Positions 1,034-36,789 of a stretch of 36,789 bases of DNA are shown here, in pieces. Numbering within the stretch: the first letter of the stretch is position 1; every line of letters begins with the position of its first letter. The notes under the pieces were generated by a model that was given only the letters and a program-made list of their open reading frames with translations, was not told the DNA's origin and ran no database searches. Both the position numbers and the translations under genes were made by a program. The DNA comes from Tannerella sp. (GTDB lineage: Bacteria > Bacteroidota > Bacteroidia > Bacteroidales > Tannerellaceae). The stretch covers positions 1 through 36,789 of the forward strand of contig JAISEJ010000176.1 in NCBI GenBank assembly GCA_031264155.1, given 5' to 3'.

Positions 1034-1383
1034 ATTCCGCATCATACGGTTGCTAACCTTTTCCCCTTTTTTCCCCGTTTATGAGGCCGGCTTCCGCAAC
1101 GGACGGGCTGCGGCAATTTGCAATGCACCCATCGGTAAACGCCGTGTAATGATGGCGCATTTGCGCAAATCCGGGTACAAATATTTGCTGCGGATAATAC
1201 AACTGTTGAAAAAAAACGCAAAAAAAAACCGTAAAAATTTGTTTAGCATCAGAATGAACATTATCTTTACCCCCTCAATTGCGTGTCCTTGGCAATGGAA
1301 AGGGATAAGCTGTTGTTTTTTTTCAGATGATAATTGTAGAGTGCTGGATTGAGGTGAAAGCAAACAAATATAATAAAATAAAT

Positions 1384-4300
1384 ATGAAAAAAAATCTTAC
1401 AAATTTAATTGCATGCGCAGCATTAATGCTGCTCGCTTGCGGAACTGCTGTTGGGCAGACATATTGGGGTTTCGGGTGTGACTGTAACGGTGGAACGTAT
1501 GACGTTGATGATTCATTTTCTTACGACGACGGACTGAATATTAATGGTAACAGGTATACTTATTACTTTGAATACCCAGTTCCAGCTAGCGGACGCCCAA
1601 CCTTTGGTGGTCATAATACGTCGAGTCCATATCCATCTGCCAACACGACACTTTATTGGGATAGTAGTGATAATCTGATGGTAATACAATGGCATTGGAC
1701 AGGAGGATGCACAAATGAATATCCTCTGGGTACCTGTATAGCGTGGAATTGGACTTTACAAATTGACAGAGAAGAACATGTTTCCTATCCTACCAACTTA
1801 TACCCTTCGCAATATCATTGCAAGAGTGGTTATGTTAAACGTACTGATGGCCATTTGACACAAAATCCTACCCATACGCATGGTATAATAACTGTAAATG
1901 TAAATTCTGTCGCTGCTTGTGGTTCCACACATTTTGGATGGCTCTATTGGGGAAGTCCTACATGGGGACATTATGGGTATACATATGATCCATTAACATT
2001 TGATTGGATTTCCAATTCATCAAATGATGGTCAACATGCTCTTACTAATAACGAAGGTCATTTCATCCTTACGAATAATGTTAACATGCGTTTGAAAGGC
2101 TCACCTCAATTCCGGACTAGTCCATCAAATATTCCTCTTGACAAACAATATCTTAAGTTTGGTAGTGGCTACTCCATTCGTTTTGATCAAACGTTTTCAG
2201 GTACCAGTACCGCAGTAGTCTCCGGCCAACAATCTCATCTGGCAGCAGATATAGGAACAGGTAATACCATCGGCCTTTGGGAGGGTACACTCTTTCCTTT
2301 AACATTTGTAAATGGAGGAACATTGCTTCTTGGCCCGAAGGGAGACGATCAGGATCTGATATTCCTTAAGCCCGGAGGTGGAACCATATCTGTAAAAAAT
2401 TATTTTTGTTGCAGTTCATCTGATACCGACCCCTTATGGGAACACCACGGCATACATTTTAATGTAGGAGGTATTACAAATACCTCTGCTTCTCAGATTA
2501 ACATTGAGAATGAATGTATTGTTGCCTGTGGTACTAATGATATTGCAGTCTATAATGATAATGCATGGCTGATTCTGGATGGAGACCAACTCCCCAATCT
2601 ATGGAAAGGCAATGTACTGGCATCGGCATGGGGGCATGTACGCATTGATACAATCGTAACCGCTAACACTGACGCAAAAACTCACGAAATAAGGTCTCAT
2701 AATAACGCATTGACTTTTATGAATAATTTTTCAGTGACAAACTCTCACGATGAGGCTCATGAATACTATCATGTGGACGGTGATTGCTGCGAATCCTATA
2801 TTTCTGCGGGCGGCACGCAGTCCTACACCTTTACTGGGATTGGCGGAAAATTAGACATGGTTACCGCAACAGGCACAATCGAAATGGCGGAAACATTTAA
2901 TTTTGCCGGAAAGGGGAACAACAATAAATTAAACATGCTTGGAGATGGCGGCATAAAGATTGACGGCGCTGATACTGTTAAAACAATAGACGAAGGTCAT
3001 GCCCGCTTCTATTCCGAAAGCGGCCCCATCTGGATGGGATCAACTCTGGAACATCTACAGGAAGGGACTGTAAATGGAGACAAAGGCCTTACCCTATGGG
3101 CTAACGGCGACGTCTATTGCCCTCCATATCCTCTTGTTTGTATGCCCGGTGGATATGTGCGGGTAGACGGTTCTATATCATCTACAAATACAGGTTTTGG
3201 TTTGGATACAATCCGGTCTTTTAAAGATTCGGTTAATTTAAATTCAGGTATTGCATATTCCGGTGAGAATGGCAAGTTATGGATTGACGGACATCTTTCC
3301 GTTAATATCAAAGGCAAACATGATGGCACAAATCCGGATCTTCCCACAGGTATAGTTTTAGGTGCCGCCCGGGGAGGAAACGAAGGCGTTTATATTCATC
3401 GCACGGGAGCAGGCAGTGATTCGATTCATTCCAAGGGAGGACATATATACGTATCAGACCCGTTTACCTATTGGCAAAATCTCCTCCTCACCGGCAGCAG
3501 CAATGGCCTGACGCTTTTTGCCGAAGGAGCGTGTGATGCTGTGACTTGTGATAATCCGTCGATTCCGATTCATGGATATATTGCATTAGACAGTTCCGTT
3601 ACAACAAAAAATTCCGACGAAGGTTATGTATTAATAAAATCACTGAACGATCATGTTACTTTGGGACATGGTATGGTTCATGAAGGGATAAACGGAAATC
3701 TTGATATTTTCGGAAATAAATATGTCGATATAAAGGATGGTTATAATAGCGGCAAGGAACAGTCCACCAATCCCGATATAACATTGCCAGCTGTCCTTGA
3801 TTCGATCGGCTTGTATATTTACCGTAACGGTACAGGTAACGACAATATTATCTCGGATGCAGGTCACATTTATATATACAAGTCACTTACGTACGATCAA
3901 GCAGTAGCTGCCAATGGCGGTTCGGGTTTGACTGTAAATGCACAGGGAGATTGCGTGACAGCAGTTGACTGTTACGGTCAGGTTGGAGGCTTTGTCAAAA
4001 TAGACAGCGCCGTTACCACTACCAATATAGGTAATGGGTTCACCGTTATTAAATCCGATAATCATTATGTAGAGATGAATGGAGGCTTTGTACATACAGG
4101 CGTTGACAGCAGTCTTCTGGTTTCCGGTAAAACAAAGGTAGATATCAATAACGCATATCCGGCAGATTACTTTCATTCCGCCATATCATCCGCCATACCG
4201 GTTCCGGGAATATCCGGCCAAAGAGAAGGTGTTTATATTCTTCGTACGGGAACAGGCAGTGATACTATCATTTCAAGTGGCGGTCATGTAAACGTTACTG

Positions 4301-7300
4301 ATCCTTTCTTTTATGAACAAAAACAAAATGTTAGTACGACGAGCGGTCTTGCCATATTGGCAGAGGGGGCTTGTGAGGTAGTTCTTCCTTGTGGTGAGCT
4401 AGGCTATGTATGGTTACAGAACGATGTATGGACGAAAAACGTTTCGGAAGGTCCGACTACAATCCAATCTAATAATCATTATGTCCGTATCGGTGAAGAT
4501 AGTCGCAATCCTGACCATACCGGAGCTCGTTTTACCCATTTGGGAGTAAGCGGCAATTTGAATATTCTTGCAAAGGGTGAGAGTGGTGCATGTGGTCCGA
4601 TTTGTGATAATATTGAATGGACTCTTTGGGAGCATTATAATAACATACCTCATTCTGGACGCAGTTATGTCTGGATTGGTAATGATGTAAAAATTACCAT
4701 GGACGGAACCAATGGTACAGGAATAGACGGTAATGCCGTTATCCGTTCTTATAACGACGTTGTTAATATGGATGATTCCGTAACATTTACAGATGCGAAT
4801 GGCGCCAATTTCTTAGTGGATGGCGAATATGGTATTCGTACACTTGGTCCGACAGCCTTGACAAACAACAAATATACCCCGTCGCCGGCTAATGGTTTAA
4901 CCATTGGAACTACTTCGGGTTACGCTACTGCCGGGCAGGGGTTTGTTACTTATCTTTCCCAAAGTGGTTATGTTGATTTCGGCAAAGCTCCCGATATAAG
5001 CGATGAAGCCAATTTTAATACTCCATTCCTGTATACGGCAGGAGAGAGTGAGAATGCGCTGTTGATCGAAGGAGATTTCCGCGTATTCTTTGGCGATTCG
5101 ACAACAATTACGATGGGCAGGAGTACTAGTCCCAGTACCGTCTTCGGTAATGCAAAAATTTATTCGCCTGAGGGTTGGATTAAATTTGCAGATACTTTAG
5201 GATATACGGGAACAGAAGGCAATCTTATCATTTACGCAAATGGCACTAACGCAAGCACCCGTTCCGACCTGCTTCAGACTCTTGGATGTATCGATCACGC
5301 CGGTTTTATTTTATTTGACAGCATTACGAAGATTTCATATCCTAATCAATTGGATATGGGTATCACATGGATACATTCCAGTAATGATGATGTTGTAATC
5401 GGCGATATGTTTACGTATGAAAGTGGAGAACCAGCAAGTCACCCGTATGAAAACGGCGAATTTATCATGCAGGCAGGCCAGGATATCTATGGAAAGAGTT
5501 TTGATGATACGATTCATTTTATACAACGGGGCGACAGCAGCATCCTTCTGGAAGCTCAAAAAACGATTCGCCTGCAACAAATGCTGTACATTGATCGTGA
5601 AAAGGCGCTGCAAGGCGATATAACCTTTAAAGCAGGTTATCCAACATTTGCGGAACCGGCAGATGCTATGGCTCCACATGAAGCCTCTTTCAGAGACTAT
5701 ATGCCGTCGGCAATGCTGATAAAAGATAATGCGACAGGATACTGGAATCCGGGAGACTGTGGCACTCATGATTATATAAACCGGTATGAGGGCCATGATA
5801 CGGGCAGCGATATATGGTTTGAAGGCCGTGTTTGGCTTGATCTTACACAATCCACGAAGCCGAATAATAATATTAAGACCACATTCCGCGCATTCAATTC
5901 CATCTTTATTGATTCCACTTTCGTATATGAGCAATATGTTAGCGAAGGAGGAGACATATTGCTGTTTGCCGAAACCGGGAACATCGAAGCGGCAGTAACC
6001 CGTCAAGACGCAAGTGAATTTCCGACAACCGGTTATATTGCAGACGATACGGTACGATTCGACATTCAAAATATAGATTTTAATAAAGAAATCCGCATTC
6101 AGGCAGGCAATCAGGTCTGGGATGGAGATGAAGATGACCAACCGACGAACTTGCTTACCTGCTGGAAAAAAGGAGACGTAGTGGGTGCTGAATATAACGG
6201 CAATATCCTGTACAATAAACCTTTCATAATGGATAACAGAGGCAAGGGATATACGATTCTATCGGCTGCCCGCGACATTGAAACCCAGGTCATGGCTCCG
6301 TTTATCTTTACTTATAACGGCGGACATCAGGCATCGGGCGATCTGGACGTCACAGCCGGCCGTCATATAGAAACTCATGCCATGATGCAGTTTAATTATC
6401 CTGATGATGAAAACCAGGCAAATGTAACATTGGAAGCCGGCCGTCTGGATACCACTGACATGATTGCAAGTAATGCGTTGTGTAAAACAATCGAAGAAGG
6501 AACGACGCTGGCAGACATCAACGGCGACGCTTTCAATCCTGACGTACGAACGGGAGGAAAACCTGACGGTAACCCGGCGATAAACAATGAATTTGCCGCA
6601 GGAGGAAAAGGACACGGCAGTATATTGCTCTTCGACTCTCTCGAATTTAACTACGACGGTGCAGGAACAGTCCTGTTAGTCGCTGAAAACGGCAATATAG
6701 AATCCGATCCTTATCTCCACAAGACTCCTGGAGGACCGGCCAATCCGGGTCAAGGCGGTAATACAGGGAATTGGGGCAACGGCTACAACACCTTGTCGTC
6801 GCTCGACCCGATTCAGCATGACGCCCAGTTAACATTCAACCACGGCGGGTCAGGCATTACGCAGTTAAAGGCTATCGACATCAAACTGCACGACAAGATT
6901 TCTTACCTGGCTACTCAACAAGCTAACAAGAAGAATGGTCAGTTCTATATCACGGCTTATGATTCCGTTCTGACGCGCAATTTGCAGTATGAGAATCACA
7001 CGGATACGGGAAGCGTGTTTATCACAACGGCCAAGTACAAGAGTACCCTTTGTGACGTTGTAGAATATGATTGTGCACTCGGAGGCCCGGGCATACATCA
7101 GGGACATATCGTGCTGGGTTACGGCGCAGACTGTGATAATGAGAATATGAACGACAGCATTATCTTCGATTATAACCGCCTTGGCACGAACAATGCAACG
7201 ACAGGCGGAAACATCCACATCCTTGCAGGATTCGAAGGCTTTGAGAGAAACCGCATAACCGGGAAGCCGAACAGCACGGAACTGTTCAAGGACGATAAAA

Positions 7301-10300
7301 CGGGTATGGACAAGGACAAAGGCAAAGGATACGGTGGAAACATTACATTCGATTATACGGAATTTTACATGCCGACCGGAAGCGGTACGACGGGCGGTTT
7401 CACGGAAATCCGCACGCCGAACGGAAATATCTGGGGTAAGGATTCGATCCTCTACCGCGGCGTAAACGGCGATTTCCTTGTAGACGCAGGCCAAGGTTCG
7501 ACGGACGACCTGAGGGCGATCCGCTGGAGGAGCATGGAAGGCGCCTTATGTATCGGCGGCTCCGAAGACATCCTGAACACCGACATAAAGGATAATTGCG
7601 GCGACACCGCTTTGTGGCGTACCGGCAATATCATGATGAAGGGCGCAACATTGAATTTCGGAAAACCGAGCACAACGGCAGTAGGAACCGGAAACGCAAT
7701 ATTCCGCACACGCGAAGGCTTCATTGATACCTACGACGCATTTACGGTAGACAGTATGGCAGGCAACCTGCTGAAATATGCAGGAATGGAAAATACAATA
7801 GAACGCCGGAAGAACAACTGGGGCGACGTAAGCGAACGCGACTTCCGTTATACCCCGGTGAAGGAAAGCGGAAGCGTCTTCTTCGGTGCAGACGACAATG
7901 TCATGCTGAACTACGGAAACAGCAACCTGGACTACTGGAATTATGGAGACAAAACGACGGGAAGTCCGGGAAATCCGGGAAATTATGACATAACCGGTTT
8001 CCGCGGTCATAAGCTGAACAACGTAAATAATCCCTATTATTATACGTCTTATGAAGGTTACATAGAGGATCTATGCTACGCAACGTTCAACGTAAACGTT
8101 GACGGGTATATGTTCTACCGCAATGACTACAATCCGCGCCGAAATTTACATCTGTTGTACAGAGGTTGCGAGGGCAGCGACTGTTCCGGTCTCACGGGCG
8201 ACTGTAAGACGACATCGAACGGAGCGCGCGACCTTGCGTTTAACTTCGACGAAGACATTCAGGGCGCAAAGGTACAGTCCGGCGGTCTGGCCGTAGTGGC
8301 TTCAAACTATATCGACCTGTTTACCAAATTCACCTATCGGGGTGGCGAAGGAAGCGGACTGGGCGCTGTGCCGGGCATGAACAACCTTCACGGCGAATCG
8401 GTATCCGGCTATGGCCTGTATATCAAATCGCAGTACAATGGCGAAGGTAACAACCACCCGGAAAAACGCCGCGCAACATGCGAAAACTGTGACGGAACAT
8501 CGTCATGGCCGATCGGTGGCGGTACCAGCATCGCAATTCCCGAAATGACGTACATCGGTTTCCACGACGACGCCCGCATTCATACGAACAATCAGAAATC
8601 CCTGCTGGAAGCGCCCGTCATCGAGTTCTTCGGCCATGCCGAATTAGACAGCGAAACGGAGAAGGGCAGCAAGACGAAAATCACGCTGAAAGGCGACAGC
8701 CTCATCTTCCACGACAGCGTCATCTTCGACGGCACCAGCATCGATCTGACTCCTTTCACGACGGACGCCACTCAGCGCGCAAACGACATGCGCTACGGCG
8801 TAATCAACGACCGCGGCAACACGGCAAACTACAGCTTCTACGGCCCGGCTATCGAAATGGAAGACCGCGTGCTTCCGGTGATCGAACTGGGCTACCAGCG
8901 CTGCACCGAACCGGGCACAGCTCCGAACCTCGCTCCGAACGTACGCTCAATGAACGGTAAAGAAAGAACGCCGGCGGTCGGAGGCGACGTCATCGTAGCT
9001 TTCAAGCACGGCTATTCCATGCCGATCTTCAACAGCGTCGTTGCGAACAATGCAAGGATTTCGTTCATCAGCGATTCGCTTGACGGCGTGACCGGCGGCG
9101 AATACATTGACGCTTTCATCCGCACCGACCTGCTCCGCATCCGGAACAAGGTAGAATTTTACACCGACCCGCAGCAGCCGATCAACCGTTCGGGCAAATT
9201 CGTAATGGCTACGCCGGCTCAGATGGATGACCAGATGGTTGATCCGGGCATGTATACGCGCCACCTGCACACCGAACCGGGTAGCGAGTTGAGCATACCG
9301 GGCGAAGATTCGCTGATCGTTGTTGCTACTACCGTGGTAGGCGGTTACGGTGAAATTCATGAAAACGTATTTGTGAAAGCGAACGCTACGCTGGCTCCGG
9401 GTTTTGCTTCCTTAATGGAAGGCGACTGCCAGACGCCTTATCACCAGGGTAAACTGACGATACATAATCTCCAGATGGAAAAGGACGCCGTCCTCCGCAT
9501 CTCGATTAACTATGCAACGTGCGTGCAGGAAAACGGAGAAGTAGTAAGCTGTATGCAGACCGACTTGTTGGAGGTACAGGATACGGTATTCTTCACGGAA
9601 GGAAAAGTGCCGTTGACGGTATTGCCGGAAACGGAAACGCTGCTCCCGGGCTGTTACCTGTTTATGACTTATGGCGATTCGCTGGGAGTAAGCCGGGAAT
9701 ATGTGAAGAACTTCGTACTGACGACGCAGCGTTACAAGGATAGTTATTACACCCTGGACTTCTCGGAAGCAGGAAAAGTGTACTTGTGCGTGACGGAGTT
9801 CCCGATACCGGAAGTACAGCGTTACGTAGACCTTCCGGCAGTAGAAGGCGTAACTACCGTACCGGGGCCGCGCCGCCACTACGTTAAGGGTAATAAGAAT
9901 TTCACCTTCACCGCAACGTTCACGGGCGCTCCGCTGAAAGTAACTGCAACCGGTTTCTATTCGGGCTGGATACTCGACCTGGACAATACGGCGAAAATAT
10001 TGGGAAACAATTATTATGAATATACGATCTATCAGGTGGTAGAGCCTTGGACGGTCTATATCGGCCCGGATGCATCCACCGTATCGAACGAGTTCGTTAC
10101 CGGCAAGCAGCGTGTATGGGCGTACCGGAATACATTGTATATAAACTCCGAAAAGAGCGACGTCGTAAGTATCTATAACATAACCGGCGTCCTGAACAAA
10201 AAGATGGAAATCCCCGAAGGCGTAAGCAAGTTTACGCTGGAGAGAGGCGCTTATGTAGTGACCCTGAAAGACGGTTCGATACACAAGATAATCATCAGAT

Positions 10301-10302
10301 AG
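1384..10302 (+). CDS. Giant secreted repeat protein with T9SS type A C-terminal sorting domain
   Basis: ORF 1327..10302; ATG at 1384 gives a signal peptide MKKNLTNLIACAALMLLACGTAVGQ. C-terminus ...SDVVSIYNITGVLNKKMEIPEGVSKFTLERGAYVVTLKDGSIHKIIIR is typical of Por/T9SS tails. Beta-rich internal repeats (GxYIxRxGxGxDxIxSxGGHxxV). Confidence 0.9.
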   Translation: MKKNLTNLIACAALMLLACGTAVGQTYWGFGCDCNGGTYDVDDSFSYDDGLNINGNRYTYYFEYPVPASGRPTFGGHNTSSPYPSANTTLYWDSSDNLMVIQWHWTGGCTNEYPLGTCIAWNWTLQIDREEHVSYPTNLYPSQYHCKSGYVKRTDGHLTQNPTHTHGIITVNVNSVAACGSTHFGWLYWGSPTWGHYGYTYDPLTFDWISNSSNDGQHALTNNEGHFILTNNVNMRLKGSPQFRTSPSNIPLDKQYLKFGSGYSIRFDQTFSGTSTAVVSGQQSHLAADIGTGNTIGLWEGTLFPLTFVNGGTLLLGPKGDDQDLIFLKPGGGTISVKNYFCCSSSDTDPLWEHHGIHFNVGGITNTSASQINIENECIVACGTNDIAVYNDNAWLILDGDQLPNLWKGNVLASAWGHVRIDTIVTANTDAKTHEIRSHNNALTFMNNFSVTNSHDEAHEYYHVDGDCCESYISAGGTQSYTFTGIGGKLDMVTATGTIEMAETFNFAGKGNNNKLNMLGDGGIKIDGADTVKTIDEGHARFYSESGPIWMGSTLEHLQEGTVNGDKGLTLWANGDVYCPPYPLVCMPGGYVRVDGSISSTNTGFGLDTIRSFKDSVNLNSGIAYSGENGKLWIDGHLSVNIKGKHDGTNPDLPTGIVLGAARGGNEGVYIHRTGAGSDSIHSKGGHIYVSDPFTYWQNLLLTGSSNGLTLFAEGACDAVTCDNPSIPIHGYIALDSSVTTKNSDEGYVLIKSLNDHVTLGHGMVHEGINGNLDIFGNKYVDIKDGYNSGKEQSTNPDITLPAVLDSIGLYIYRNGTGNDNIISDAGHIYIYKSLTYDQAVAANGGSGLTVNAQGDCVTAVDCYGQVGGFVKIDSAVTTTNIGNGFTVIKSDNHYVEMNGGFVHTGVDSSLLVSGKTKVDINNAYPADYFHSAISSAIPVPGISGQREGVYILRTGTGSDTIISSGGHVNVTDPFFYEQKQNVSTTSGLAILAEGACEVVLPCGELGYVWLQNDVWTKNVSEGPTTIQSNNHYVRIGEDSRNPDHTGARFTHLGVSGNLNILAKGESGACGPICDNIEWTLWEHYNNIPHSGRSYVWIGNDVKITMDGTNGTGIDGNAVIRSYNDVVNMDDSVTFTDANGANFLVDGEYGIRTLGPTALTNNKYTPSPANGLTIGTTSGYATAGQGFVTYLSQSGYVDFGKAPDISDEANFNTPFLYTAGESENALLIEGDFRVFFGDSTTITMGRSTSPSTVFGNAKIYSPEGWIKFADTLGYTGTEGNLIIYANGTNASTRSDLLQTLGCIDHAGFILFDSITKISYPNQLDMGITWIHSSNDDVVIGDMFTYESGEPASHPYENGEFIMQAGQDIYGKSFDDTIHFIQRGDSSILLEAQKTIRLQQMLYIDREKALQGDITFKAGYPTFAEPADAMAPHEASFRDYMPSAMLIKDNATGYWNPGDCGTHDYINRYEGHDTGSDIWFEGRVWLDLTQSTKPNNNIKTTFRAFNSIFIDSTFVYEQYVSEGGDILLFAETGNIEAAVTRQDASEFPTTGYIADDTVRFDIQNIDFNKEIRIQAGNQVWDGDEDDQPTNLLTCWKKGDVVGAEYNGNILYNKPFIMDNRGKGYTILSAARDIETQVMAPFIFTYNGGHQASGDLDVTAGRHIETHAMMQFNYPDDENQANVTLEAGRLDTTDMIASNALCKTIEEGTTLADINGDAFNPDVRTGGKPDGNPAINNEFAAGGKGHGSILLFDSLEFNYDGAGTVLLVAENGNIESDPYLHKTPGGPANPGQGGNTGNWGNGYNTLSSLDPIQHDAQLTFNHGGSGITQLKAIDIKLHDKISYLATQQANKKNGQFYITAYDSVLTRNLQYENHTDTGSVFITTAKYKSTLCDVVEYDCALGGPGIHQGHIVLGYGADCDNENMNDSIIFDYNRLGTNNATTGGNIHILAGFEGFERNRITGKPNSTELFKDDKTGMDKDKGKGYGGNITFDYTEFYMPTGSGTTGGFTEIRTPNGNIWGKDSILYRGVNGDFLVDAGQGSTDDLRAIRWRSMEGALCIGGSEDILNTDIKDNCGDTALWRTGNIMMKGATLNFGKPSTTAVGTGNAIFRTREGFIDTYDAFTVDSMAGNLLKYAGMENTIERRKNNWGDVSERDFRYTPVKESGSVFFGADDNVMLNYGNSNLDYWNYGDKTTGSPGNPGNYDITGFRGHKLNNVNNPYYYTSYEGYIEDLCYATFNVNVDGYMFYRNDYNPRRNLHLLYRGCEGSDCSGLTGDCKTTSNGARDLAFNFDEDIQGAKVQSGGLAVVASNYIDLFTKFTYRGGEGSGLGAVPGMNNLHGESVSGYGLYIKSQYNGEGNNHPEKRRATCENCDGTSSWPIGGGTSIAIPEMTYIGFHDDARIHTNNQKSLLEAPVIEFFGHAELDSETEKGSKTKITLKGDSLIFHDSVIFDGTSIDLTPFTTDATQRANDMRYGVINDRGNTANYSFYGPAIEMEDRVLPVIELGYQRCTEPGTAPNLAPNVRSMNGKERTPAVGGDVIVAFKHGYSMPIFNSVVANNARISFISDSLDGVTGGEYIDAFIRTDLLRIRNKVEFYTDPQQPINRSGKFVMATPAQMDDQMVDPGMYTRHLHTEPGSELSIPGEDSLIVVATTVVGGYGEIHENVFVKANATLAPGFASLMEGDCQTPYHQGKLTIHNLQMEKDAVLRISINYATCVQENGEVVSCMQTDLLEVQDTVFFTEGKVPLTVLPETETLLPGCYLFMTYGDSLGVSREYVKNFVLTTQRYKDSYYTLDFSEAGKVYLCVTEFPIPEVQRYVDLPAVEGVTTVPGPRRHYVKGNKNFTFTATFTGAPLKVTATGFYSGWILDLDNTAKILGNNYYEYTIYQVVEPWTVYIGPDASTVSNEFVTGKQRVWAYRNTLYINSEKSDVVSIYNITGVLNKKMEIPEGVSKFTLERGAYVVTLKDGSIHKIIIR
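3380..4640 (+). repeat. About 420-bp (about 140-aa) internal repeats in the giant protein, three clear copies
   Basis: GVYIHRTGAGSDSIHSKGGHIYV (~3385), GLYIYRNGTGNDNIISDAGHIYI (~3808), GVYILRTGTGSDTIISSGGHVNV (~4228), each followed by GL(T/A)xxAxGxC... and TTKN/TTTN/WTKN...IKS/IQS. Confidence 0.75.
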
Positions 10303-25862: not shown

Positions 25863-25995
25863 AAAATAATAGCATTTTCTTTCATAAAATTTTCACATTG
25901 TCATGAGCATGCCCATCGCGTTCCCGTTTCGACGCTTTTCAAATAAAACTGTAAATATTATACTGTATGCGACATAAATTTGTAAGGTTCGAAAT

Positions 25996-26023
25996 GTAGA
26001 GACAGGGCATGCCCTGTCTCTAC
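25996..26023. repeat. 28-bp perfect palindrome, GTAG/CTAC family copy 3
   Basis: GTAGAGACAGGGCATGCCCTGTCTCTAC; near-identical to 1006-1033, 25 kb away. Confidence 0.95.
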
Positions 26024-26200
26024 CGGGATGGGGGCGGTATCATCTTATTTTTTACACGTTACTATCCTGCGCGAAGCATAATTGAGCATTGAACGATTTA
26101 ACATCCATAATTGAATGATTTTTTGCCGGGCTTAAATTTGCATTATCCTAACTTTGTCCCCGTCGAAAAATTACAGTTTTACAAATTTAATTTAATACGC

Positions 26201-27629
26201 ATGAAGAAGAAAAAAATATCAATTATGATGCTGGTTATCTCCTGCATGGCAGGGTGTAACGACGATGACGGTAGGGAACATCAATACGACGCTACAGGGA
26301 AAAGTTGCCGGCGTACAGGTGATAGCCGGGAACGGCGCCCCCGGAACGGTTCCTAAAGTGTTGATCCGCGGTTCTTCCACACTGAACCTGAGCGCCGACC
26401 CCCTCTATGTCGTAGATGGCGTGCCCATGGGCACAAACCCGAATTTCTTAAATCTCAATGAGATAGAAAGCATGGAAGTGTTGAAAGACGCATCTGCCGG
26501 CGCCATCTACGGCAGTATGGCGTCGAACGGCGTTATCATGACGACGAAAAGGGGCGTGGAAGGCAAGCCCGTTTTTACCGCTATGGCGGCAATGGCGGAT
26601 GGGATCGCCTGACGGCGCGCATATCGAACGATTTTAAATTTTCAAAATACATATCCGCCGGTTTCCTGTTAAATCCCCGTCATGAAAGCTGGGGATCACC
26701 CTCAAACTGGCATGATAACCTGAGGATCGACCTCATTACTCCGGTTTACCTGCCCGCCGAAGACCTCACCGGCAGCAAAAACGAGTACAGCGTTTACGGG
26801 CGTTCCAACCTCAGCTATGTCTGGAATCCGGTAGCATCCAATAAACGCAACTTCAACAAAGCCGGATATTTCGCCTTGGGAGGCAATGCGTATATAAACA
26901 TCAATTCCATTCCCGAACTGACATTTAAATCGCTGATAGGATTTGATTATGTAACGTGTAAAAAATAAAATGGCAAAAACAAGTTTGAAAAAATGCTTCA
27001 TGCACTTGCACGAAGGACAAAATCAGCCGGAAAAATACTTTGCGTTCAAGCGTAAAGGACAAAATCGGTCGGATTTATGAAAACTTGAATACAGTATAGA
27101 CCGGACATTAAGCGGTTCGAGGCAACAGGCTCCGAATAACAGCGAAGTCTTGCGCGAGATTAATGCCGGAACGCTATACCCTGCGGTCGACGGGAACAAG
27201 GTCATGCGTTCGCTTTTATCCTATTTCGGCCGCGTATCATACAACTACGACCGGCGCTATTATCTGACGGCTACTTTCCGGCGCGACGGTTCGTCCAAGT
27301 TCATGACGAAAAACAAATGGGCCAATTTCCCATCCGCATCCGTTGCATGGCAACTTGCCAATGAATCGTTTATGCGGAATCAGTCCCTGTTCGGCTCTCT
27401 TAAGTTGCGTGCAGGCTGGGGACAGGTCGGCAATCAAAACCTGCCGTCAGCCGTATACGAATCGCTCCTTTACCAGCATTACTGCCTCTCCGGCAGCAAC
27501 CTGACAAATACGTCCCATATCAGTACGATCCGGAATGAAGATATTAAAAGGGAAACGGTGGAAGATATAAACTTCGGCGTAGATTTCAGCCTGTTGAACA
27601 ATTCTCTGAGCGGTTCGGTCGAATATTAG
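26201..27629 (+). pseudogene. SusC/TonB-dependent receptor remnant, several frame-disrupted pieces behind a lipoprotein-like leader
   Basis: MKKKKISIMMLVISCMAGCNDDDG leader. Plug piece TVGNINTTLQGKVAGVQVIAGNGAPGTVPKVLIRGSSTLN.. (~26265-26581). Other-frame piece YGGNGGWDRLTARISNDFKF...FKSLIGFDYVTCKK* (26582-26968). Third piece KLEYSIDRTLSG...SLSGSVEY* (27081-27629). Confidence 0.88.
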
Positions 27630-35478: not shown

Positions 35479-35513
35479 AGCGTGCCGGGAATCTCGCAGG
35501 CATAGCGAGGCAT

Positions 35514-35537
35514 GTTTCCGGACGGATTGCCGGAAAC
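35514..35537. repeat. Hairpin (8-bp stem) downstream of cdaA
   Basis: GTTTCCGGacggattgCCGGAAAC; no T-tract. Confidence 0.6.
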
Positions 35538-35606
35538 GGCGCCGGAACAAAGGCTTTCGCAGGCGGGCTTTTGACGTGTGGTAAGCAGCGGCCGATACGG
35601 TATTAT

Positions 35607-35705
35607 GTAGGGGCGTAGCGCGCTACGCCCTTCCCGGTACAACACCCCCGGTACAACACCCTCCCGGTACGACGTAAATAAGGGCGTAGCACGCTACGCC
35701 CCTAC
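35607..35705. repeat. Inverted pair of 28-bp palindromes (family copies 4 and 5) flanking a CCCGGTACAACACC direct repeat
   Basis: GTAGGGGCGTAGCGCGCTACGCCC (35607-35630) and GGGCGTAGCACGCTACGCCCCTAC (35682-35705) are reverse complements with one mismatch; three CCCGGTAC(A/G)ACxxC repeats between. Confidence 0.88.
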
Positions 35706-35821
35706 ACAATCCACAATACATAACATACAACACACAATATCCACAATCCACATCGTCGCGCATGGACTTTCCGGCAAAAAAATAACATACCGATAAAAAA
35801 ACGATTTTTTTATGTTTTCAT

Positions 35822-35851
35822 TTTGTTTTTCAAAAAAAAGCAATATCTTTG
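35822..35851 (+). promoter_or_regulatory. Bacteroidetes-type promoter upstream of the heptad-repeat ORF
   Basis: TTTG (35822-35825) - N18 - TATCTTTG (35844-35851). Confidence 0.65.
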
Positions 35852-36051
35852 CCGGCGTTTGTATATGTCTTTTAAAAGTGTATAAATCATGTCTTTTGAA
35901 AGTATATGCATTGTGGTTTTTAAAATAATAGTATGTCAGACATTAATGTAAAATATTCATCCCGTTTTGAGTTAATTAACATCCTTATGTTGATTAATAA
36001 GGTATGGGCGAGCGCATACTCGCGTGGTTTTACAGGGAAAGAAATAAATCT

Positions 36052-36486
36052 ATGAAAAACCATCCCTTAATTTTATTCGTTATTGAACTTTTATCCGGCG
36101 TAAGGAATTTATTCCATGGCGCGGGTAACTTATTTTTTGACGTCCACATTCCAATTGTGGAGCGCCACATTCCAATTGTGGGGAACCACATTCCAATTGT
36201 GGGGCGCCACATTCCAATTGTGGGGAACCACATTTCATTTGTGGGACGCCACATTCCAATTGTGGGGAACCACATTCCATTTGTGGGACGCCACAATCCA
36301 ATTGTGGGGAACCACATTCCAATTGTGGGGCGCCACAATTCAATTGTGGGGAACCACATTTCAGTTGTGGGGCGCCACAATTTGTTTATGGACGTTAATA
36401 ATTCGCTTATGGGCGTTGGGGAATCATTCGCCGGAAAACGCGATCCGCCTGTTGTAGGCTTACTTTCACTTGATGAGATACGATAA
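36052..36486 (+). CDS. Heptapeptide tandem-repeat protein (HIPIVGN/HIPIVGR)
   Basis: ORF 36004..36486 (ATG 36004 or 36052). Degenerate 7-residue units outside the DNA-perfect core (GVRNLFH GAGNLFF before; DVNNSLM GVGESFA after) support this frame as the coding one. Confidence 0.6.
   Translation: MKNHPLILFVIELLSGVRNLFHGAGNLFFDVHIPIVERHIPIVGNHIPIVGRHIPIVGNHISFVGRHIPIVGNHIPFVGRHNPIVGNHIPIVGRHNSIVGNHISVVGRHNLFMDVNNSLMGVGESFAGKRDPPVVGLLSLDEIR
36144..36391. repeat. Tandem array, 12 x 21-bp palindromic units with alternating linkers (42-bp higher-order period)
   Basis: Core CCACATTCCAATTGTGG starts every 21 bp from 36144 to 36375; the 2 nt before the core alternate cg/aa from unit 2 to unit 12. 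Confidence 0.97.
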
Positions 36487-36583: not shown

Positions 36584-36789
36584 ATGAATAACATGAAAGG
36601 AATTAAACAGTGTGTCATCGCGGCAATTTTTCTCTTAACAGTGACAACCCGGAACGCAACGGCGCAAACGCAGCGTCCCGGCGGCATAAACAACTCCAAC
36701 TACACCTGGCTGGCGTGGCTCACGCCGGACAGCTACAACAACGGAATCTGGACGAACCTGATACAAGGCTCGGCAAGTGTCGGTGATTT
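36584..36789 (+). CDS. N-terminus of a secreted protein, truncated by the window end
   Basis: MNNMKGIKQCVIAAIFLLTVTTRNATAQTQRPGGINNSNYTWLAWLTPDSYNNGIWTNLIQGSASVGD... signal peptide; open at the edge so not in the ORF track. Confidence 0.75.
   Translation, partial: MNNMKGIKQCVIAAIFLLTVTTRNATAQTQRPGGINNSNYTWLAWLTPDSYNNGIWTNLIQGSASVGD

Follow-up and report, generated by a model that had tools for sequence, protein, structure and literature searches.

A probable palindromic minisatellite of the BrickBuilt kind and its sister arrays in a Tannerella genome

The intergenic locus downstream of cdaA

The window, by which the whole analyzed stretch of 36,789 nucleotides is meant, belongs to a Tannerella sp. 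MAG of 2.34 Mb (237 contigs, 67% complete). Near its right end, between cdaA and a gene at 36584, twelve palindromic units of 21 bp stand in tandem (36144–36395, no strand assigned); they are homogenized as 42-bp pairs, and the evidence for the array comes from repeat finding and RNA folding. The nearest relatives of CdaA are 81–92% identical and come from Tannerella sp. and related Porphyromonadaceae MAGs. The cdaA gene was used for naming the group because the open reading frame (ORF) that crosses the array found no relative when it served as a query against genome contigs. Judging from isolate codes and background knowledge, the Tannerella MAGs presumably originate from the termite gut. The cdaA block aligns in relatives, but the sequence downstream of it does not, and next to cdaA the array was found in none of the relatives that were compared.

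The sequence between cdaA and the array is a mosaic of segments that recur elsewhere. Repeat comparison identified in this mosaic a pair of dispersed palindromic repeats (GTAGGGGCGTAGC.CGCTACGCCC; 35602–35710, no strand). Directly 3′ of cdaA, positions 35479–35594 hold one copy of a repeated segment of about 100 bp, which also stands beside a 41-bp array (L021, 1791–1991) and beside a 42-bp array (L060, 10922–11002). A Bacteroidota-type promoter-like box, TTTG-N18-TATCTTTG, follows on the plus strand at 35822–35851, about 150 bp 5′ of an ATG at 36004, in agreement with the promoter that had been proposed upstream from the sequence alone. The box was found by pattern matching, and its type matches three times in the window, compared with 0.83 matches expected by chance. 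Leader copies elsewhere carry it as well, as TTTG..TAAATTTG in L304 and in a similar form in L014. Between 35822–35851 and the gene at 36584 there is no further box of this type, so that transcription through the array into this gene would be plausible.

A repeated leader module spans 35860–36098 on the plus strand. Its first part (35860–35998) recurs 5′ of an HU-like gene in L304 (77%), and a piece further on (36038–36097) recurs 5′ of an ECF-sigma-like gene in L033 (78%); both of these copies stand without an array. The leader is also shared with L014, where positions 35950–36098 recur in two pieces (94% and 77%) before a different 21-bp array. Because copies precede HU-like and ECF-sigma-like genes that have no array, the module, which was considered as the leader of a MITE, looks rather like a repeated promoter module. 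In L014 and L304, an (AG)n microsatellite is located directly 3′ of the shared leader, at the point where the window leader continues to the array, and it is possible that the length of the 5′ leader varies there.

The array itself keeps a pitch of 21 bp from its start at 36144 through all 12 units, with zero indels and a constant register. The sequence-only reading had described it as twelve units of CCACATTCCAATTGTGG. The number and the exact spacing of the units stand, but the wording was loose: six of the twelve (units 1–4, 6, and 9) are exactly CCACATTCCAATTGTGG, five differ from it by one to three bases, and unit 12 (36375) is the strongly diverged CCACAATTTGTTTATGG. The dinucleotides before the core alternate strictly between cg and aa from unit 2 to unit 12, as had been noticed, and the remark that some units improve the palindrome is borne out by unit 10, CCACAATTCAATTGTGG, which is a perfect palindrome around one base. 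The proposed homogenization on a 42-bp unit is also confirmed, with a self-identity of 94% at lag 42 versus 82% at lag 21. The matches at lag 21 amount to 173 of 210, whereas the maximum across 500 shuffles was 83, and the array has a TRF score of 395. Compared with shuffles, the RNA fold of 36134–36401 gave z = −7.5 on the plus strand and z = −6.2 on the minus strand. Terminator-like sites around the array are enriched (8 versus 2.1 expected). A closely related unit in L010 is 77–87% identical to the unit of the array. Terminal inverted repeats and a target duplication were looked for around the array and none were found, and its right flank has no other match in the genome. A search of the window against Rfam gave no match, and the phage collection that was searched contained no similar DNA.

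The open reading frame across the array

An ORF of 160 codons (36004–36486, plus strand) runs through the array, and the sequence-only reading had taken it for a gene built of heptapeptide repeats. Such a gene would encode a secreted or structural protein, (G-[NR]-H-I-P-I-V)n, with flanking heptads conserved at the protein level. The frame is open, the leader copy in L014 holds the same frame open into a heptad array of its own, and at least one open frame is present in many 21-bp arrays of the genus. Nevertheless, the array can be read without a stop in several further frames as well, and this is what a 21-bp period predicts. The changes from unit to unit in the ORF frame comprise 3 synonymous and 12 nonsynonymous ones, where about 4.4 synonymous changes are expected. 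Pooled over the 21- and 42-bp arrays tested in two genomes, 376 synonymous changes compare with 390.7 expected. A comparison between units in the manner of dN/dS therefore gives no synonymous excess in any of the six frames, either for the window array or for the pooled arrays.

Other evidence argues against the protein as well. The ATG is absent at the ORF start site in the L014 leader copy, from which the reading goes on without a stop through the L014 array, and the differences between the L014 and window leaders, read by eye, hit all codon positions. Homologous arrays do occur in a non-coding context. In-frame stops are frequent in related arrays of the genus (three TGA and one TAA in L003), and there are sister arrays in this genome that repeat every 23 or 41 bp, periods with which a frame cannot be kept. 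A Pfam search of the ORF returned no family at the cut-off (best E = 0.13). Structure prediction by AlphaFold2, run on the single sequence without an alignment, reached a mean pLDDT of 43, which amounts to no confident fold and is weak evidence when taken alone. Codon tests, sister arrays, stops, the missing ATG, Pfam, and fold together led to the rejection of the coding reading. The heptapeptide protein is unsupported and highly improbable, and the ORF is judged to be a by-product of the 21-bp period. Arrays of this period yield open frames by default, and a false protein family can thus be kept out of the databases.

Sister arrays and mobile families

The array is not alone in its genome. 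A survey of 61 contigs (593 kb, about a quarter of the MAG) contained about 41 arrays with periods of 20–24 or 40–46 bp and at least 2.4 copies, and 12 arrays with other periods of at least 10 bp. The periods cluster at 21, 23, 41, and 42 bp, and 35 of the 41 arrays have 0% indels. Among Parabacteroides and other named relatives (965 kb), a period of 22 bp is the most frequent; 22-bp arrays occur in Parabacteroides isolate genomes (L108, L115, L118, L124, and others), and similar classes of arrays are found in many independent MAGs. Other families of the order, of which a small sample was surveyed, have few arrays, with G034 as an exception.

Palindromes were scored with a test on the circular unit, for which arrays of other periods served as the control; an initial score on the consensus unit had been weak for 21-bp arrays. 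With the circular test, p ≤ 0.05 was reached by 20 of 32 arrays of 40–46 bp, 20 of 96 arrays of 20–24 bp, and 3 of 47 arrays of other periods. The strongest palindrome statistics come from the 42-bp arrays, and for the 21-bp consensus of the window array alone, the excess of palindromy over shuffled units is not significant (p = 0.145). The palindromes tend to differ from array to array. The arrays are mostly intergenic and avoid ORFs. On crude longest-ORF gene calls, 26 of them lie in convergent and 15 in divergent gaps, compared with 32 and 79 in the background (Fisher p = 1.5e-4); in the relative G009, arrays are not depleted from divergent gaps. The flanks of the arrays have matches elsewhere in the surveyed genome in 47 of 77 cases, versus 36 of 126 control intergenic stretches.

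The window contains further repeats of this sort. Repeat finding revealed a second array at 80–305 (no strand), with relatives in L048 and L060, whose 42-bp unit holds two palindromes (CCACGACCGTGG and AATGACATGTCATT). A dispersed palindrome, GTAGAGACAGGGCATG(C/T)CCTGTCTCTAC, is located at 1002–1047 and again at 25973–26030 and is repeated in many contigs. Between these copies, positions 1327–10302 form an ORF of 2991 aa with a signal-peptide-like start; it has no Pfam match at E ≤ 1, and its C-terminus resembles, by eye, a T9SS sorting domain.

Terminal inverted repeats and a MITE-like organization characterize at least two families of arrays. In family A, a 42-bp array lies between inverted ends of 26 bp (GTAAYGTGTAAAAAATAA), and six of the seven complete copies are flanked by target duplications of 3 bp (TAA/TTA). 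These copies have lengths of 238 + 42k, with k = 0, 0, 0, 1, 2, 3, and 5; two of the shortest measure 239. Family B, with a 23-bp array, bears CTCATGTTACGCAATTGCC at each end; 49 such end sequences are present in the genome, and three perfect 7-bp target duplications were found. The inverted ends of both families were not found in the 24 other genomes searched. An autonomous parent transposon was sought and rejected for each family: no pair of these inverted repeats was found about 1–2 kb apart, and those unpaired ends whose surroundings were inspected by eye had no recognizable transposase-like ORF next to them.

A truncated copy of family A, consisting of an inverted repeat and two 42-bp units, lies on the minus strand of the window at 26951–27095 (the right-hand limit is approximate), within what we take to be a broken susC/TonB-receptor-like gene (26265–27629). 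Another copy (L267, 1138–1526) is located between genes that, from our reading of the translations, are presumably nuoL- and nuoM-like, and this element has an open frame of 130 codons in the direction of the operon. The hairpins of family A are followed by T-runs on one strand. This strand opposes the flanking genes in seven of the eight copies with co-directional neighbors (one-sided binomial approximately 0.035), a small sample with crude gene calls in which the one exception has doubtful flanks. The bias fits a loss of insertions that would stop transcription.

The stems of family A have diverged in an unusual manner. Among the seven complete copies, the per-site difference is 4.3% in the tail, 2.2% in the lead, 17.6% in the unit spacer, and 42.9% in the inner stem. 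The stems are therefore about ten times more diverged than the flanks, and they are still paired and covary strongly. Across 22 distinct units, 87% of the cells in the stem comparison are paired, and 26 cells are doubly changed, compared with 12.4 ± 2.5 in shuffles. The covariation score is 0.330, versus 0.169 in shuffles and at most 0.121 in slid controls. The shuffle control leaves relatedness in, and the slid controls matter for this reason. Of five measures on the whole structure, two are not above shuffles, namely how many pairs show a double change and how many further pair types occur; some units are hybrids with mismatched arms.

Known repeat systems and competing explanations

No family had been recognized for the array from its sequence, a statement that can be improved on, as the kind is known from Porphyromonas gingivalis (PMC4596501). 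Klein et al. (2015, PMC4596501) described BrickBuilt elements as dispersed, intergenic tandem repeats of 23 nt without spacers. These elements are self-complementary, form long predicted stem-loops, have a non-repetitive leader with promoter activity, a tail, and inverted-repeat ends, and spurious hypothetical ORFs have been predicted inside them (PMC4596501). Most of these features have a counterpart here. The window array consists of 12 spacer-free direct repeats of about two helical turns (21 bp), the arrays are intergenic and dispersed (about 41 in 593 kb), and a leader with a promoter-like box, stem-loops, and ORF-like frames inside the arrays are present. Inverted-repeat ends have their counterpart in the sister families, with target duplications in six of seven copies of A and three such duplications in B. 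There are also differences. The unit of the window array has 21 bp, an alternation of 42 bp, and another sequence; bounding inverted repeats and a target duplication were not found at it. In a comparison by eye of the ends alone, those of families A and B are unlike the published GAGACCTTTGCA type. In addition, several families stand side by side in this genome, and the arm sequences change between copies. P. gingivalis also carries MITE464/PgRS of 41 nt, and repeats of 22 nt have been reported in strain W83 (PMC4596501). Likened by size, their classes of 22, 23, and 41 match arrays found here. These repeats occur in about 10–20 copies in a bacterium from a related family of the same order, whereas most arrays of the termite Tannerella group have periods of 21 and 42 bp. 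A limited search of the open-access literature returned no description of such arrays in Tannerella or Parabacteroides. The present analysis extends the repeat type from P. gingivalis to termite-gut Tannerella and Parabacteroides and adds several families in one genome with ends and duplications, lengths that step by whole units, and covarying stems.

We consider the window array to be, with a probability of roughly 0.75, a non-coding palindromic minisatellite with a pitch of two helical turns, BrickBuilt-like, and one of a large set in this genome and its relatives. Several sister arrays form the interior of MITE-like mobile elements. The window array is filed as BrickBuilt-like and not as a proven MITE, since no inverted ends bound it and its right flank is unique. 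The number of copies would change when 42-bp pairs slip or are exchanged unequally, while the pairing of the arms would probably be kept up mainly by template switching between them during replication. The leader promoter may drive transcription of the array, which would then form a structured leader before the gene at 36584, with a mild effect or none on that gene. Such arrays would be mostly selfish or neutral DNA, held where they do little harm.

It is also conceivable, though on balance doubtful, that the arrays are functional cis elements under selection, whose palindromes and pitch are conserved because they are used. The model for this view is given by the REP/BIME arrays of E. coli, which the excerpted parts of PMC2817692 and PMC3733652 present, together with RAYTs, as intergenic palindromes in regular alternating arrays with proposed roles at transcript ends and in supercoiling. 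As far as these parts describe them, REP/BIME arrays resemble the window array in its 42-bp alternation, its palindromic units, and the intergenic position of the arrays, and they differ in that the pitch is shorter here and that no single palindrome is shared. Membership in the REP/RAYT system itself was rejected, as no match to the REP-associated Y1 transposase (PF01797) was found in the 67% complete MAG (G000). Selected arrays might give transcripts a structured end or leader by which they are terminated or protected, or they might present dyads on one face of the helix to which a dimeric nucleoid or topology protein binds, and we regard either role as unlikely. The rigid two-turn pitch, the excess of arrays in convergent gaps, the terminator-like sites at the window array, the covariation of family A stems, and the orientation of their T-runs, as if terminating orientations had been lost, are consistent with selection. 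However, each array tends to have its own palindrome, so no single protein would read them all. The comparison with relatives did not find the window array beside cdaA, the inverted repeats of A and B were not found in the other genomes searched, and divergent gaps are not avoided in G009.

The covariation in family A is predicted alike by template switching and by selection on a hairpin or a dyad site. Template switching is treated in the excerpted part of PMC8794818 as one way in which hairpins and compensatory changes arise, with RNA hairpins as the case described. By this mutational route, perfect stems and compensatory double changes can form without selection point by point, and we extend the idea by inference to bacterial minisatellites. 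Family A is a natural experiment in this respect, with nearly identical mobile copies in which compensatory changes have made the stems diverge, and it could allow template switching and selection to be told apart in bacteria. A tentative generalization, which we hold to be somewhat less than an even bet, is a palindrome system that rewrites itself across Tannerellaceae and related Bacteroidales, with mobile arrays and fast stems in which pairing and the two-turn pitch are held. Stems would change faster than flanks in such a system, and each array would therefore acquire its own palindrome. The driver would be either a template-switch mutational engine or the selection of palindromes as addresses for dyad-binding factors.

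An artefact of assembly or binning is hardly credible as the source of these arrays. The MAG is fragmented, but the same array classes recur in Parabacteroides isolate genomes (as 22-bp arrays) and in many independent MAGs, which refutes an artefact for the class; the copy number at the window locus could still be wrong. Thirty of the 113 placed arrays are located at contig edges, and arrays of this kind may help to break these assemblies.
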